In this document: piece by piece, positions 49,787 to 57,795 of the stretch
Layout: every line of letters starts with the position of its first letter
Numbering within the stretch: position 1 is the first letter of the stretch
Source: Thermotoga profunda AZM34c06
GTDB taxonomy: Bacteria > Thermotogota > Thermotogae > Thermotogales > DSM-5069
Direction of reading: 5' to 3'
Length of the DNA: 64,000 nucleotides
NCBI RefSeq assembly: GCF_000828675.1
Contig: NZ_AP014510.1
Span: 496,001-560,000, forward strand
Translations under genes and position numbers: made by a program
The notes under the pieces: generated by a model
What the model was told of the DNA's origin: nothing
The model's database searches: none
The model's input: the letters and a program-made list of their open reading frames with translations, nothing else

Positions 49787-50398
49787 GTGAAAAAGATCTA
49801 TTTAGTAGGTCTAAAGTTCTATGATTCAAAAGATGCTGAATTTCCATTGAATTATGAGCAGGTAACCAATTTAAAAAAAGAGATCTTTCTTGAATTTCTC
49901 AGATTCGATGCCGATGAACACATAGCAGTAGATCTCTTTGGTGATCTTGCTTTACCAGATCAAATCATTCAGATTCTCTCACTTGTACCTCACAGCTTGA
50001 AAATCTGCCAAGACGAAGGTTTTCTATATCATCTGAATTTACCTGATATACAGTTGGTGCAGGAAAGACCAGATATAGAATCTTCTTCAAATCCAGTTTT
50101 GGTTGAAAAACCTGTTTTTGTTTTATCAGAAGATGATAAATTGCTAATCGTCGAGAGTTCTGCCAAAGGTGTTGTCCCAAGACCAATTGAAAATCCAGAG
50201 AATCTCTCAGATGGAGTTGTTGGCTATTTACCAGATTTTGTAACGCTCTCTGAATCAGAAAAAGCAAAACTATTTGGCAACAAAGTTGCCTTTGTTTGCA
50301 GAGATCCACAGGATTCGTTCGAAAGAAGAATGAGTGAAAAGATGTCGCAAAAGGCTTTATGCTTTCTGATTAATCTGATAGAGTTCTGTGAGGGGTGA
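49787..50398 (+). CDS. Hypothetical protein upstream of a YhaN-like ATPase
   Basis: A 203-residue soluble protein I do not recognise. No signal peptide, membrane segment or known motif is seen. The middle part (about residues 90-140) is rich in Val, Glu and Pro (LVEKPVFVLSEDDKLLIVES), the ends look alpha/beta (KIYLVGLKFYDSKD; AFVCRDPQDSFERRMSEKM). GTG start 11 bases after the GH13 gene, and its stop overlaps the ATPase start by four bases, so it is probably a partner of that ATPase. It occupies the place where YhaO/SbcD-like phosphoesterases are often found, but it lacks their metal motifs. Confidence 0.6.
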   Translation: MKKIYLVGLKFYDSKDAEFPLNYEQVTNLKKEIFLEFLRFDADEHIAVDLFGDLALPDQIIQILSLVPHSLKICQDEGFLYHLNLPDIQLVQERPDIESSSNPVLVEKPVFVLSEDDKLLIVESSAKGVVPRPIENPENLSDGVVGYLPDFVTLSESEKAKLFGNKVAFVCRDPQDSFERRMSEKMSQKALCFLINLIEFCEG

Positions 50399-52911
50399 GT
50401 GTTCTGAAGATAAAAAGCTTGAAGATAACGGGTTTTGGAAAATTTCATAATTGCCAAGTGGTCTTCAAAGATGGGGTAAATGTCGTTTTTGGACCAAATG
50501 AATCGGGGAAGACCACTCTTTATCGATTCATGGTATCGGGTCTCGGTGGACTTTCGGAAGATGAGTTGAACCGTTATAAACCTTGGGATTTTGACGAATT
50601 TGGTGGCTCTTTAATCATCGAAGGTATGAAAGAAGAGGAAGTCTTAATTCAGCAACCTTTATTAGATAGGAAGTACGTCGAATCGATTGGTTTGTTATCA
50701 GATGAAGAAGACATCGTTGAACTGCTCAGAGTAGATGAAACCATCATAGCCAGACTCAAAAGAAAGATGGCACAACTTGAGGAAGCCGAGAGAATTTCAA
50801 TGCTTCTGAAAAGGCAACCAGAGTTTGAAGAAAGGTTGTTGAAGACCGAGAAAGATATCGATGAGCAAATAGAAATTTTGCAAAAAGAGATTGAAGCTTT
50901 CCAGTGGCATAGGCATCAACTTTTTGGATTGATTGGAGAAAGATCAAAGATCGAGAGTGATTTGAACGATATTTTCAATCAGAAACAAAAATTGCTTGAT
51001 GAACTAAAGCGTGTTGATTTCATGATCACACGAGAATTGGAAAAGATCGATGAGCAATTGAATAGGCAATTGAAAGAACTTCAAGAAATGCTGGACATGG
51101 AGAGACGATTACCTATTATCACTGCAGAAGAATACACAGAGATCATACAGCTTCACCAAAAGATCGAGAATGCCGAGCAAAAATGTAAAGAACTCGAAGG
51201 CAAAATCGAAGAATTACTCAAAAAACGTTCAGATGTGGAAAAGCAGATGAATGACTTGAAAAGTGAACTTGATTGGCAGGAAGACATAGAAAAGGTGAAA
51301 TTGAGGATAAAGAACTTCGAGTTGAGTTATAGAGTTTTGGAAAACAAATTGGAGCAGCTTGAAAGTCATAGAGCGAGTTATCGGCCAAATTGGGAAGTTT
51401 TCAAACGTGAAGGAGATAAGATCCTTCGTTCTCTTGAAGCCGAAGTACCCACTTCTATAGAACTTGAGATGAAACAAATAAACAATAAACTACAGTTCAT
51501 CGAGAGTGAGATCTCAAAGCATAGAAGCCACGTGGGATTAGAACGCGTTTTGAGTTTGGTAACACTTATCTTCTCTGCGATTAGCGTTGGGTTTGGATTA
51601 TTTATAAGCCCTGTGTGGTTCTATATATCTGTGATCACCGGCGCAATTTCGGGCATTTTCTTTTTTCTGTTAATTAGAACGATGAAAAAACTCGAAGAAG
51701 AAGATGAACAAAAGATAAAGCTTCAGCTGGAGTTTCGTTCGGCTGAAAAAAAGAAACAGTCAGCCATTCACCGTGTCTTGAGTGCCTTTGGTGTCGATAG
51801 CTTGGAAGAATTGAAAAAGGCATATGAAGAATACAGCAAATGGTTGAATGAGGATCGGGAGATGGAGAAATTAGAAGAGAGAGTTTCCTTAGAAGGAATG
51901 GCTTTGGTGAGTGAGCTTCATCGGTTTGGAGCAAGGGATATAAAGGATGTTCCGAGTGTTGTGCTTAGACTGAATGAGATTGTTGAAAGTCTTGAGAGAA
52001 AACAATTAGAGTATTTCTTGATTCAACAATCCATCGATCAAGTGAAAATCGATCTTGAGAAAGTAAAGGAAGATCGATCACACTTATCAACACTGTATTT
52101 CTCAAAAATTAGCTCACTTGGTTTGCAAGATATGCAGCAACTTCAGATGGCATTTGAGAGAAATTCGAAAATAGAACAAATTCAACACAAAATAGATCAA
52201 ATACTCAGATTACAAGACATATTTAAGCATGGAGATTTGTTTGTCTTGGCGCAGAGTTATCGAGAATTGGCAGAATTTTTGGGACAAAAAAAGAGACTTG
52301 AGAAATCTATGGCAGATTTATCAGAAAAGCGAGAAAATCTGAGTGAGAAAGTCAAAAAGATCGATGAGCAGATTTCTAAAATCGATCTTTCAACTGATAT
52401 TGCAAACCAAATACACCAGCTTTCCTTGAAAAAACTTGAAAAAGAAGCATACTCAAAACTCAGAAATCAATCGGCACAGGTAAAGGAGTTTCTACTCAAT
52501 GAGCTAACTCGCCTTACAGGAACTTATGTAGAGAAATTTTCGAGGATTCTGAAAGATTTGTTCGGTAGATTCACTGATTTGTCGCAAAGCATGTCTGTTG
52601 AAAAAGATCTTTCTGTGAGATTTTTCGTAGGGAATCAGTTTACAAATACAATTGACACTCTCAGTCGTGCCACGTTGGATCAGTTATTACTTTGTTATAA
52701 GATAGCGCTCTACAATACATTGCAACCAGAAGATTCCATACCTTTGATCATAGACAACTTTCTAATAAGATTCGACGAAACACGACTTGAAAAAGCTGCA
52801 CAATTGTTGAAAGACGAAGCTATGCAAAGACAGGTTATAATCTTCACGAGTGATCAGAAACTTTTGAAGATTCTTGGTGTTGAGCCAGTTTTAGTGCTTA
52901 AAGTACCATAA
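50395..52911 (+). CDS. YhaN/Rad50-like coiled-coil ATPase with membrane hairpin
   Basis: An 838-residue SMC-type protein. Residues 1-50 begin LKIKSLKITGFGKFHNC with Walker A GPNESGKTT; the C-terminal half has a signature-like LSRATLDQLLLCYKIAL and Walker B IPLIIDNFLIRFD, in which the second acidic residue is Asn. Long coiled coils fill about residues 120-380 and 430-720. Two hydrophobic helices at about 385-430 (LIFSAISVGFGLFISPVWFY and the following) sit where Rad50 has its zinc hook. Family members are thought to handle DNA ends with a nuclease partner; none is next to it. The gene converges with and overlaps the next one by 14 bases. Confidence 0.83.
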   Translation: MSVLKIKSLKITGFGKFHNCQVVFKDGVNVVFGPNESGKTTLYRFMVSGLGGLSEDELNRYKPWDFDEFGGSLIIEGMKEEEVLIQQPLLDRKYVESIGLLSDEEDIVELLRVDETIIARLKRKMAQLEEAERISMLLKRQPEFEERLLKTEKDIDEQIEILQKEIEAFQWHRHQLFGLIGERSKIESDLNDIFNQKQKLLDELKRVDFMITRELEKIDEQLNRQLKELQEMLDMERRLPIITAEEYTEIIQLHQKIENAEQKCKELEGKIEELLKKRSDVEKQMNDLKSELDWQEDIEKVKLRIKNFELSYRVLENKLEQLESHRASYRPNWEVFKREGDKILRSLEAEVPTSIELEMKQINNKLQFIESEISKHRSHVGLERVLSLVTLIFSAISVGFGLFISPVWFYISVITGAISGIFFFLLIRTMKKLEEEDEQKIKLQLEFRSAEKKKQSAIHRVLSAFGVDSLEELKKAYEEYSKWLNEDREMEKLEERVSLEGMALVSELHRFGARDIKDVPSVVLRLNEIVESLERKQLEYFLIQQSIDQVKIDLEKVKEDRSHLSTLYFSKISSLGLQDMQQLQMAFERNSKIEQIQHKIDQILRLQDIFKHGDLFVLAQSYRELAEFLGQKKRLEKSMADLSEKRENLSEKVKKIDEQISKIDLSTDIANQIHQLSLKKLEKEAYSKLRNQSAQVKEFLLNELTRLTGTYVEKFSRILKDLFGRFTDLSQSMSVEKDLSVRFFVGNQFTNTIDTLSRATLDQLLLCYKIALYNTLQPEDSIPLIIDNFLIRFDETRLEKAAQLLKDEAMQRQVIIFTSDQKLLKILGVEPVLVLKVP

Positions 52912-54535: not shown

Positions 54536-55596
54536 CTTTTCATCTGTTCAGTGGAAAATTCAACAGGTAGATCTATCCATTTATTCTCAATAGCCGATTT
54601 ATATAAACCAAGAATTATCTGAACGGCATTTTGACCTTCTTCACCAGTTATGTACGGATCATGATCTTTCATCAGAGATTCACAGAAATCTCTGTACAAC
54701 GCGACATGACCTTTCCCATAAACGGTGTCTGGATCTGAAAGGTTCATATAAGGATGGCTATCTTCATTTGGAAATCTCCAGGTAAGAATACGGTTAACTG
54801 CGAGCCCTCCGATTTTCACCGTTCCCCTTTCACCGAAGATTGAAAGAACTTCTTCCAGATTCCTATCGTAGATATTCGAAGTGCCTTCGATTATTCCTAT
54901 AGCACCGGATTCAAATTCCACTATTCCAACACCAAGATCTTCTGATTCGATATATGGATGATTCATGTTTTTTATCAAGCCAAGGACCCTTTTTGGTTTA
55001 CTACCAAGCATCCATTGAAGCAAATCGATTCCATGGATACTCTGATTCATCAAAACTCCACCATCTTGATCCCAAGTACCACGCCATGAGGCTTGCTTAT
55101 AGTAATCTTCATTTCTATTCCATCTCACGCTTATTGTCCCGTAAAATATCTTACCAAAGGCATTACTCTCTAATTTCTTTCGCAATTCTTGGACGGGCGG
55201 ATTGAATCTATTTTGAAAGCACACACCGAGTTTCAAATTTTTCTTTCTTGCCAAATTCACCATTTCTTTCATATGAGTCGTGCTCAAAGCCATTGGTTTT
55301 TCCACAAGTACATGCTTAGCAAAATTCAGACAATCAAGTGTTATTTGGTAATGTGTTCCACTCGGTGTTGCAATCGCTACAAAATCTATATCGTCCATTT
55401 TTAGCATTTCCTTATAATCTGTATAAACGTTAGGCCTGTACCCAATGACTTTTTCAATTTGATCTGCCACTGTTTTTGCCTTTTTTTCAACCAAGTCACA
55501 TGCCGCTACGAGTTTGACGATTTCTTGGTTTTCAATTATAGCCTCGACGTGCTTTGGAGAGATTCTTCCACATCCAATCAAAGCCATTCTCAGCAT
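54523..55596 (-). CDS. Gfo/Idh/MocA-family dehydrogenase (sugar-nucleotide type)
   Basis: About 357 residues. The N-terminal NAD site is RMALIGCGRISPKHVEAI, followed by VAIATPSGTHY and the catalytic motif VLVEKPMALS; WRGTWDQDGGVLMNQSIHGI holds the catalytic His region. With the 2-epimerase gene overlapping upstream, a role in oxidising a UDP-aminosugar (as WbpB or similar) is likely but inferred. TTG at 55599, ATG at 55596 or ATG at 55587 could be the start; GGTGAT favours the first two. Confidence 0.87.
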   Translation of the reverse strand: MLRMALIGCGRISPKHVEAIIENQEIVKLVAACDLVEKKAKTVADQIEKVIGYRPNVYTDYKEMLKMDDIDFVAIATPSGTHYQITLDCLNFAKHVLVEKPMALSTTHMKEMVNLARKKNLKLGVCFQNRFNPPVQELRKKLESNAFGKIFYGTISVRWNRNEDYYKQASWRGTWDQDGGVLMNQSIHGIDLLQWMLGSKPKRVLGLIKNMNHPYIESEDLGVGIVEFESGAIGIIEGTSNIYDRNLEEVLSIFGERGTVKIGGLAVNRILTWRFPNEDSHPYMNLSDPDTVYGKGHVALYRDFCESLMKDHDPYITGEEGQNAVQIILGLYKSAIENKWIDLPVEFSTEQMKRWSF

Positions 55597-56675
55597 CAAG
55601 CGATATCACCTCTTATGATTTTGTATATTCTCTCCGAGCTTTTTCCATCGCCGAATGGATTTTCAATTGAATTTAGATTTTTTCTATTTGCTTCATTTAT
55701 AGCTTCATAAACCGTTTCTTTAGAAGTCCCAGCGAGTATACCGAGCCCCGCTTCGATCAATTCAGGCCTTTCAGTCGTCTGCCTTGCAACTACAACGAAT
55801 TTATTGAAAGAAGGTGCTTCTTCTTGCACTCCTCCCGAATCTGTCACAACGAATTTTGCACCATCAAGGAGCGATAAGAAATGCAAATAGTCTACAGGTT
55901 CGATCAAAATGAAATTCGGATTTTTTCCGACTTCTTCATCGACAATCTGCCTCACATTTGGGTTTTTGTGTACTGGAAAGACCACTCTAATATCATTTTT
56001 TTGCGCAAAGTCTGCCGTTGCCCTGAGAATAGATCTCATCTTTTCACCTATGTTCTCTCTACGATGGAGTGTCATTAGAATGTAATAATCTGAATCTATG
56101 AGCTCTTTTCTCAGAGATACCATATTTATTTTTTTTCTTATGAGCTCTAATGCATCTATAACGGTATTTCCCACGATGAAAATCCTATTTTCATCAAGAC
56201 CTTCACGCAATAAATTTTCTTTTGCTCTTTTCGTTGGAGCAAAAAGATATCTACATGATACATCGATTAATCGTCTGTTCAATTCTTCGGGAAAAGGATC
56301 ATAAAGATCACCACTTCTCAATCCAGCTTCGATGTGTGCCACTGGGATAGAGAGATGAAATGCAGCCAAACAGGCACTGAGAGCAGTAGTGGTATCTCCC
56401 TGGACAAAAACGATATCGGGTCTTTCCTTCATCAAGATTGGTTCAATTCTCTCCATTACCCGTGAAACTATCATATTCAAAGATTGATTTTGAGTCATCA
56501 CATCAAGATCATAGTCGGGTTTTATGTTGAAAACCTTTATCATCATATCCATCATTTCTCTATGTTGAGCTGTTGCAATTAAAATTACTTCTTCACCGAG
56601 ATTTTTGAAGTATAGATACACTGGAGCGGTTTTTATAACTTCTGGTCTTGTGCCAAAGACAAAGCAGGATTTCAT
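55596..56675 (-). CDS. wecB: UDP-N-acetylglucosamine 2-epimerase (non-hydrolysing)
   Basis: About 359 residues. FVFGTRPEVIKTAPV, VQGDTTTALSACLAAFH, HIEAGLRSGDLYDPFPEELN and VVTDSGGVQEEAP are WecB hallmarks. It interconverts UDP-GlcNAc and UDP-ManNAc, or, in WbpI-type relatives, diacetamido-uronic sugar nucleotides. The ATG at 56675 is in an ATGA overlap with the upstream gene. With the dehydrogenase downstream it points to surface-glycan precursor synthesis. The paralogue type is not decided. Confidence 0.92.
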   Translation of the reverse strand: MKSCFVFGTRPEVIKTAPVYLYFKNLGEEVILIATAQHREMMDMMIKVFNIKPDYDLDVMTQNQSLNMIVSRVMERIEPILMKERPDIVFVQGDTTTALSACLAAFHLSIPVAHIEAGLRSGDLYDPFPEELNRRLIDVSCRYLFAPTKRAKENLLREGLDENRIFIVGNTVIDALELIRKKINMVSLRKELIDSDYYILMTLHRRENIGEKMRSILRATADFAQKNDIRVVFPVHKNPNVRQIVDEEVGKNPNFILIEPVDYLHFLSLLDGAKFVVTDSGGVQEEAPSFNKFVVVARQTTERPELIEAGLGILAGTSKETVYEAINEANRKNLNSIENPFGDGKSSERIYKIIRGDIA

Positions 56676-57160
56676 TGATCTACCCCCACAGTTTTTGTAC
56701 ATCCTTTTGAATCAATAGCGACTCGCATCAAGAGATCTTCGACTTCTACTTCGACGACCGCTTCATTTTTCAAATCTGCGTGTGCCAGAATCCTGAAAGA
56801 CTTTACGGTTACATCGCAAGTTGGAACAAACATAACCCTTGCATATCTTTTGAAATAGAAATTACTGGCTTTAGCACTTTTAGATAAGACAGATACAACA
56901 CCAAAGAGAAAGGATTTTTCCAAAAAATCTTCATGATCTTTGATCTCCAACAGCTGAACGGAATCATTTTGCAATGAACCAAAACAAATCAATTCACCGT
57001 TTATATACTCTGGTACAAGACCTTCGGCTTTTTCGTAAGTTATAATTCTTTCAAAAGCGCGCCTGCTCAGCACAATAATTCTTCCTGTGTATTTTACAAG
57101 ATCTGATGCTTTCAATCTCCTGAGCACATTCAAAGACAACGGATATCTTATTACCAACAT
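56672..57160 (-). CDS. Degenerate class I fumarase/tartrate dehydratase beta-type protein
   Basis: About 162 residues. The N-terminal PLSLNVLRRLKASDLVKYTG followed by RIIVLSRRAFERII and the C-terminal VEVEDLLMRVAIDSKG follow the layout of fumarase beta subunits (normally a T-A-R-D-x-A-H-K-R motif and LEVEDFPxxVAIDxKG). Here the Asp and His of the first motif are replaced (S-R-R-A-F-E-R) and the Cys-Gly-Pro turn is FGS. It may be a non-catalytic relative with an unknown role. AAGGAG eight bases before the ATG at 57160 supports that start; an ATG at 57178 overlaps the upstream stop. Its stop overlaps wecB. Confidence 0.65.
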   Translation of the reverse strand: MLVIRYPLSLNVLRRLKASDLVKYTGRIIVLSRRAFERIITYEKAEGLVPEYINGELICFGSLQNDSVQLLEIKDHEDFLEKSFLFGVVSVLSKSAKASNFYFKRYARVMFVPTCDVTVKSFRILAHADLKNEAVVEVEVEDLLMRVAIDSKGCTKTVGVDQ

Positions 57161-57174
57161 TCCTATGACTCCTT

Positions 57175-57795
57175 TCATCCGGTTACAAAGATCGTGAGTT
57201 TGTCGATGAAATTCACAAATGGACTCATTACAAGTGGCATGATCCACAGAACAACCAAAGCTAACAAGAATAACACACCGTACACTTCGTATTTCAGATA
57301 CCACTCTGTATAATATTCTGGAAGGAGTGCACCGAGCACTCTTGAACCATCGAGTGGCGGTATTGGAAACAACGAAAAAAGTGCGTACGTCAGACTGAAT
57401 TTGGCAGCTTTAAAGAGTGTTTCAAAGACATAGCTTTCCTTACTTTCCAACGCTCGAGCAAAAAGCCCATATATTAAAAAACAGATTGCTCCGACAATTG
57501 GCCCAACAAGAGAAACCAGTAGAAAAGTTTTCTTTTTTCTTTTGAGATTCCAAGGTCTTATTGGTACGGGACGTGACCAGCCAAAATCCAGGAATATGAA
57601 TGTTATAGTACCTATTGGATCAAGATGAACAAATGGATTGAGCGAAACACGCCCTACTTTTGCCGGAGTTTGATCACCGAAGAAAACAGCAGTTCTTGCT
57701 TTCAAATATTCACGCGGTGTGACTGTTAAAACAACCGCTATGAAACCGGTTATAACAGTTTCTGTGATATGTTTGAGATAATCAACCACCACCAA
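57175..57795 (-). CDS. Site-2-protease (M50)-like membrane protein lacking HExxH
   Basis: About 206 residues with five or six membrane helices. VGRVSLNPFVHLDPIGTI, WSRPVPIRPWNLKR, VSLVGPIVGAI and LFPIPPLDGSRVLGALLP match short M50B proteases in order. The zinc motif normally written H-E-x-x-H is here TPREYLKA: both His are replaced (Arg and Lys) while Glu remains. Protease activity is therefore unlikely. GAGGTG seven bases before a TTG at 57795 sets the start. It heads the operon with the fumarase-beta-like gene, wecB and the dehydrogenase. Confidence 0.78.
   Translation of the reverse strand: MVVVDYLKHITETVITGFIAVVLTVTPREYLKARTAVFFGDQTPAKVGRVSLNPFVHLDPIGTITFIFLDFGWSRPVPIRPWNLKRKKKTFLLVSLVGPIVGAICFLIYGLFARALESKESYVFETLFKAAKFSLTYALFSLFPIPPLDGSRVLGALLPEYYTEWYLKYEVYGVLFLLALVVLWIMPLVMSPFVNFIDKLTIFVTG

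Follow-up and report, generated by a model that had tools for sequence, protein, structure and literature searches.

Organization of the locus

The window analyzed here is a stretch of 64,000 nucleotides (G000:C1:496001-560000) from a Thermotogota genome of 2.19 Mb assembled as a single contig. A contig scan matched two close relatives, and the closest one with a name is a Pseudothermotoga metagenome-assembled genome (L004). On its minus strand lie, in this order, gene A, gene B, wecB, a gene for a Gfo/Idh-type oxidoreductase, and a gene for a GGDEF protein. The features of the locus are collected in Table 1. Gene A starts with a TTG codon at position 57795, located 3' of a GAGGTG sequence. 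Gene B contains two in-frame ATG codons, and the one at 57160 is preceded by AAGGAG, which relatives also have. With this start, A and B are separated by 14 nt, and an ATGA overlap between them arises with the upstream ATG only; an A-B overlap is therefore uncertain, since the start codon choice of gene B decides it. An earlier reading, made from the sequence alone (here, the sequence-only reading), had described both genes as intact frames in one overlapping operon. As seen, both frames are open, and the overlap holds for B and wecB (4 nt), but for A and B it requires the upstream ATG. Elsewhere in the window, positions 50395-52911 of the plus strand encode a coiled-coil protein of 838 aa that opens with a P-loop-like sequence (FGPNESGKTT) and adjoins a 203-aa gene; its likeness to SMC/SbcC-type ATPases was judged by eye.

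Table 1. Coordinates of genes, signals, and motifs at the A-B-wecB locus (window positions)
Feature	Position	Strand	Basis or remark
Gene A, predicted S2P/M50-fold pseudoprotease, 206 aa	57175..57795	-	ORF, alignment, AF2, VIA-align
P27-R28-E29-Y30-L31-K32 of A, in place of xHExxH; both zinc His lost, Glu kept	57700..57717	-	Alignment
N53-P-F-V-H-L-D-P-I-G62 motif of A, kept in intact and inactive members	57610..57639	-	Alignment
Ser141 of A, substituting the Asn 8 residues before the LDG Asp	57373..57375	-	Asn in 21/21 HExxH members
L148-D149-G150 of A, LDG motif kept; third zinc ligand in active S2Ps	57346..57354	-	Alignment
Shine-Dalgarno AAGGAG of gene B, inside the 14-nt A-B gap	57169..57174	-	Kept in relatives
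Gene B, predicted fumarase beta-subunit-fold pseudoenzyme, 162 aa, ATG start 57160	56672..57160	-	ORF, Fumerase_C, model
Y6-P7-x-S9, B-family signature, 33/33	57134..57145	-	Alignment
S32-R-R-A-F36 of B, at the canonical R421-D-x-x-H/Q position	57053..57067	-	Fumarases: R-D-x-A-H/Q
Y42-x3-E46-G47, B-family signature, 33/33	57020..57037	-	Alignment
ATGA stop/start overlap, gene B/wecB, 4 nt	56672..56675	-	
wecB, non-hydrolysing UDP-GlcNAc 2-epimerase, coupled to gene B	55596..56675	-	TIGR00236 425.8 bits; linkage

Gene A is predicted to have an S2P fold without the zinc histidines

The product of gene A had been called an M50-like protein that keeps the LDG and NP-x3-LDPIG motifs and has T-P-R-E-Y-L-K at the HExxH position of S2P proteases. 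Both motifs are indeed present, together with a P-P-L-D-G sequence, and the retained core comprises the LDG/PxPPLDG helix, the NPx3LDPIG loop, and a GWxRPxP loop. Against the Pfam M50 profile (PF02163), gene A scored 21.7 bits, below the gathering cut-off of 27.2. A PDB sequence search gave one weak match for A (MjS2P, E 0.062) and none for B, so profiles and folds were needed for both. The AlphaFold2 (AF2) model of A had a pLDDT of 94; Foldseek scored it poorly (TM 0.38, E 1.9e-3), and VIA-align was therefore used. With this method, the model aligned to MjS2P (3b4r) with a Z of 11.7 and an rmsd of 3.4 over 157 residues, to E. coli RseP with a Z of 11.1, and to Aquifex RseP with a Z of 10.8; the best non-S2P row had a Z of 6.5. 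By AF2 and VIA-align, A is thus predicted to possess the S2P membrane core fold of the M50/S2P family, and the assignment is borne out by structure prediction, although the Pfam score stayed below the cut-off.

An HMM of the A family matched 3b4r with an E of 2.7e-6, and RseP and SpoIVFB were matched too. It aligned PREYLK with the HExxH of 3b4r, 7w6y, and 8vjl, and PPLDG with the LDG region; the N-terminal segments of these HMM-structure alignments are weak alone, and the family alignment is the stronger evidence for the HExxH replacement. Both confirm the substitution. S2P coordinates its zinc through HExxH and the LDG Asp and uses the Glu to activate water (PMC10202637). Gene A should therefore be inactive and, judged by its motifs, should neither bind zinc nor cut peptides.

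The zinc-ligand loss of gene A is old and fixed

Homologues were surveyed in 103 Thermotogota genomes, for which we use codes for families (f1 to f11) and genera (g1 to g38); f1 to f3 form the order of the window genome, called Thermotogales here. Homologues of A were found in 78 of the 103 genomes, with at least one of these (G073) having solely an RseP-type protein. A separate RseP-type M50 match, usually of about 500 aa, is present in every genome. P-R replaces x-H in 42/42 Thermotogales sequences (36 in alignment A1 and 6 more), and HExxH is kept in families f5, f6, f7, f8, and f11. Among the 36 aligned sequences of this P-R clade, D149 is invariant and E29 is found in 34, with position 32 being occupied by Lys (30 sequences), Arg (4), or Gln (2). 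Ser141 is likewise present in all 36, versus Asn in all 21 HExxH members and in the aligned solved S2Ps. The two Gln sequences belong to genus g10 (L030, PRGYLQ; L033, PRGYTQ), in which E29 to G and K32 to Q changed jointly.

When the motif columns were left out of the tree, the P-R group formed one side of a branch with an SH-aLRT of 98. The P-R type arose once within the sampled tree, and the loss of the zinc ligands from A dates to the base of Thermotogales. Gene A shares 26 to 41% identity with Thermotogota homologues that are intact or partly eroded. Pairwise dN/dS values were 0.02 to 0.12 in the P-R clade versus 0.04 to 0.05 among intact homologues, some dS values in these comparisons being saturated. 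The sequence-only reading had allowed that orthologues with intact active sites could imply simple recent decay or sequence error. Intact homologues of A occur only outside Thermotogales, and the loss is therefore an old fixation and not recent decay; a frameshift or sequencing error was rejected, as 42 genomes agree.

A second, separate erosion of an S2P zinc site was observed in family f9 (L092, L093, L094, L100, L125, and L128-L132), with the motifs HEYAR, HEYFR, HEYPR, and REYAR beside intact HEYSH, HEYPH, HELAH, and HEMAH; in most cases the Asn before LDG persists. The opposite case was seen at L126 (G026), where HEYPH is intact and Ser replaces this Asn (FSLLP).

Gene B has a predicted fumarase beta fold and its own invariant residues

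The product of gene B had been likened to a fumarase beta subunit. Its sequence passes Pfam Fumerase_C (27.7 bits versus a cut-off of 22.2), and its model (pLDDT 93.5) matches the Leishmania fumarase C-domain with a Z of about 20 and MjFumB (5dni) with a Z of 19.5, the best non-fumarase row having a Z of 4.7. The likeness thus stands, and, with the predicted structures confirming the folds of both proteins, neither A nor B turned out to belong to another family.

In Leishmania numbering, R421, T467, and R471 are absent in all 33 divergent B homologues, and K491 is lost in 30 of them, the window B being among the 3 that have Lys. These positions were located by counting residues in the alignment, R457 of the construct being R421. 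The GPTTSxRM loop is gone in B, although its alignment is uncertain because of gaps. The loss of the Asp and His of the first motif, which had been proposed for B, is supported in part: the protein has S-R-R-A-F for R-D-x-A-H/Q, but the absence of His is uninformative alone, since 6 of 8 canonical Thermotogota FumB have Gln at this position. The telling loss is that of Arg421, Thr467, and Arg471. The divergent set also has invariants of its own that are absent from canonical FumB (Y6, P7, S9, D20, Y42, E46, G47, and E56). Canonical and divergent FumB-type proteins are split with a support of 100, the root between the two sets not being fixed, and the dN/dS of B was 0.05 to 0.19. B is a member of an old paralogue family. 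The 42/42 pattern of A and the 33/33 pattern of B are far beyond chance.

B also persists independently of fumarase. It coexists with a normal fumarase in some genomes, including the window genome, which has fumA-fumB elsewhere (L105). Neither fumarase alpha (PF05681) nor canonical beta (PF05683) was detected in six B-carrying genomes (G086-G088 and G097-G099) from g10, g11, and g14. Their completeness is 92 to 99%, with four of them at 92 to 94%, so that a gap in the assembly could account for an individual absence, but hardly for all six. In none of the divergent loci read was fumA adjacent to B. As a separate observation, g10 metagenome-assembled genomes (MAGs) (L116, near 4917; G087:C3) have a stop inside the B-homologous stretch and an out-of-frame B-wecB junction, which may be MAG sequence error or real decay.

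Gene context of A, B, and wecB

A and B are adjacent in 10 f1 genomes and 8 f3 genomes (g12 and g13) and lie apart in g10, g11, g14, and f9. A occurs without B throughout f2 (G066-G085), and B without any short A in f10. The 4-nt overlap of B and wecB is found in most f1 loci read and in the f3 genera g11 and g14, so that the two genes are coupled in translation in two families. Contexts of B without wecB contain AAA/VWA-like DUF2201/DUF4895 genes in f9 and Rex/YdjM in f10. The grouping with sugar-nucleotide genes, proposed for both genes, is lineage-specific for A, but the B-wecB pairing recurs in f1, g10, g11, and g14. We rejected WecB as a partner of B by phylogenetic profile, since WecB-like matches occur in 95/103 genomes with or without B.

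For A, no constant neighbor was found, as contexts vary by family; neighborhood inference was therefore abandoned, and it suggests no client. In f9 (L111, 3720-4586; L119; L123), an AAA ATPase, a VWA-like DUF2201 protein, and a DUF4895 protein precede B, and DUF2201-type and DUF4895-type clusters also lie near B in genus g14, which suggests an older context for B.

The sequence-only reading had treated the two losses as a joint event in neighbors and had asked whether related species keep both genes together. A lost its ligands at the base of Thermotogales, the B lineage is found in f9 and f10 as well, and adjacency is limited to f1 and two f3 genera. With losses on different branches and limited adjacency, the joint-loss story is unsupported.

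Comparison with known pseudoenzymes

Arabidopsis EGY3, a chloroplast protein, has been called the only S2P pseudoenzyme and plant-only (PMC9355673), and is credited with stabilizing other proteins (PMC9355673, PMC10978774). Since EGY3 has been so called, A would be its bacterial counterpart. Both are S2P homologues in which the HExxH zinc motif is missing, and both are conserved in a large clade; however, EGY3 is a plant thylakoid protein and A a minimal bacterial protein of 206 aa with an R-E-x-x-K replacement. The likeness is drawn from descriptions of EGY3, and we make no claim that the two losses go back to one event. S2P subgroups II and IV, which are without extra domains, have been little characterized so far (PMC10202637); the source for these domain-poor subgroups is Kinch et al. 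2006, as cited there. They and the short HExxH Thermotogota proteins share with A a minimal core without PDZ or CBS, the likeness to subgroups II and IV being one of description. In contrast to A, which has none of the three, intact short S2Ps still have the two His and the Asn that precedes LDG. The iRhom rhomboid pseudoproteases are no longer catalytic and control membrane clients through binding (PMC3149277, PMC6451368). Like A, they are relatives of intramembrane proteases, but they have a rhomboid serine fold and are eukaryotic, so the analogy is one of mode only. Class I fumarase beta subunits (MjFumB, 5dni; Leishmania FH, 5l2r) share the predicted fold with nearly the whole of B (Z 19 to 20); unlike them, B is without the substrate-binding Arg, Thr, and Arg, the GPTTSxRM loop, and an alpha-subunit partner gene. 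In the part of the literature covered, we found no paper on a bacterial S2P pseudoenzyme, and peptidase databases may list non-peptidase homologues. A is a new bacterial S2P variant, repurposed enzyme folds as such being common.

Interpretation

We regard it as probable, with moderate confidence, that A and B are two old, unrelated, and functionally retained pseudoenzymes, with putative binding roles, a charge network in A, and a WecB partnership of B. Retained non-catalytic roles, as proposed before, are supported by intact frames, purifying selection, and conserved residue losses. That both genes are instead passively drifting remnants of a once active protease and a once active fumarase subunit is hardly credible. 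Active sites are lost in both, and f9 has partly eroded A homologues such as HEYAR and REYAR, yet dN/dS is far below 1, the A frames are intact in 42 genomes, B has its own invariants, and the losses are at least as old as the order Thermotogales. It is also improbable that A keeps catalysis by another route, using the retained Glu and Asp with perhaps a different metal or a lipid substrate. The near-invariance of E29 and D149 would fit such chemistry, but it is equally well explained if these residues are charge partners of R and K; moreover, the imidazole ligands are gone in all 42 sequences, with basic side chains in nearly all, Asn has become Ser, and the two g10 sequences are without the Glu too, yet have a pair dN/dS of 0.066.

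Somewhat less remote, though still unlikely, is a single complex with the pseudoprotease as the membrane anchor for the soluble beta-like protein and for WecB. The 18 genomes with adjacent genes, the 14-nt gap in the window, and the B-wecB overlap would agree with it; on the other hand, A without B in f2, B without short A in f10, and their separation in g10, g11, g14, and f9 argue against it. That B still serves to regulate fumarase, for instance by competing for FumA as an inactive beta subunit, is very unlikely: the predicted fold is that of canonical FumB, and canonical FumA and FumB are encoded in the window genome, but B is kept in the six genomes without detected fumarase and is not next to fumA in the loci read.

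The preferred reading of two retained pseudoenzymes goes as follows. In A, basic residues have taken the place of the zinc His (R28, and K32 with Arg as its variant in some relatives), and Ser stands for the Asn before LDG. A putative buried charge network of R28, E29, K32, and D149 might then fill the empty metal site and hold the fold, with Arg/Lys against Glu/Asp standing in electrostatically for the metal. The joint E29 to G and K32 to Q change in g10 fits this network, because paired charges would change together. The remaining cleft and loops may bind a membrane client that is left uncut, A then serving as an adaptor or stabilizer. B keeps the predicted beta swivel fold, has lost the substrate-binding residues including the GPTTSxRM loop, and has its own invariants; it could be a small subunit of the cytosol with a binding or regulatory role and no hydratase activity, acting most likely with WecB or a pathway ligand. 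Taken alone, these binding mechanisms, like scaffolding, are tentative. It is conceivable, though we would not count on it, that A is an order-wide bacterial S2P pseudoprotease with a charge network for a zinc site, a non-cutting client binder and the S2P counterpart of iRhoms, and that B is another enzyme fold put to new use, with a conserved surface of its own and coupling to UDP-GlcNAc 2-epimerase.

If annotated by family name, both A and B would be labeled as enzymes. The order-wide A, its intact relatives in the phylum, and the eroded f9 forms make up a graded series from intramembrane metalloprotease to non-catalytic protein, and the B family indicates that a fumarase subunit fold can persist where no fumarase is detected. 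Overall, the long-standing conservation of A and B across many related species, as read from their sequences, points to probable useful non-catalytic jobs for both.
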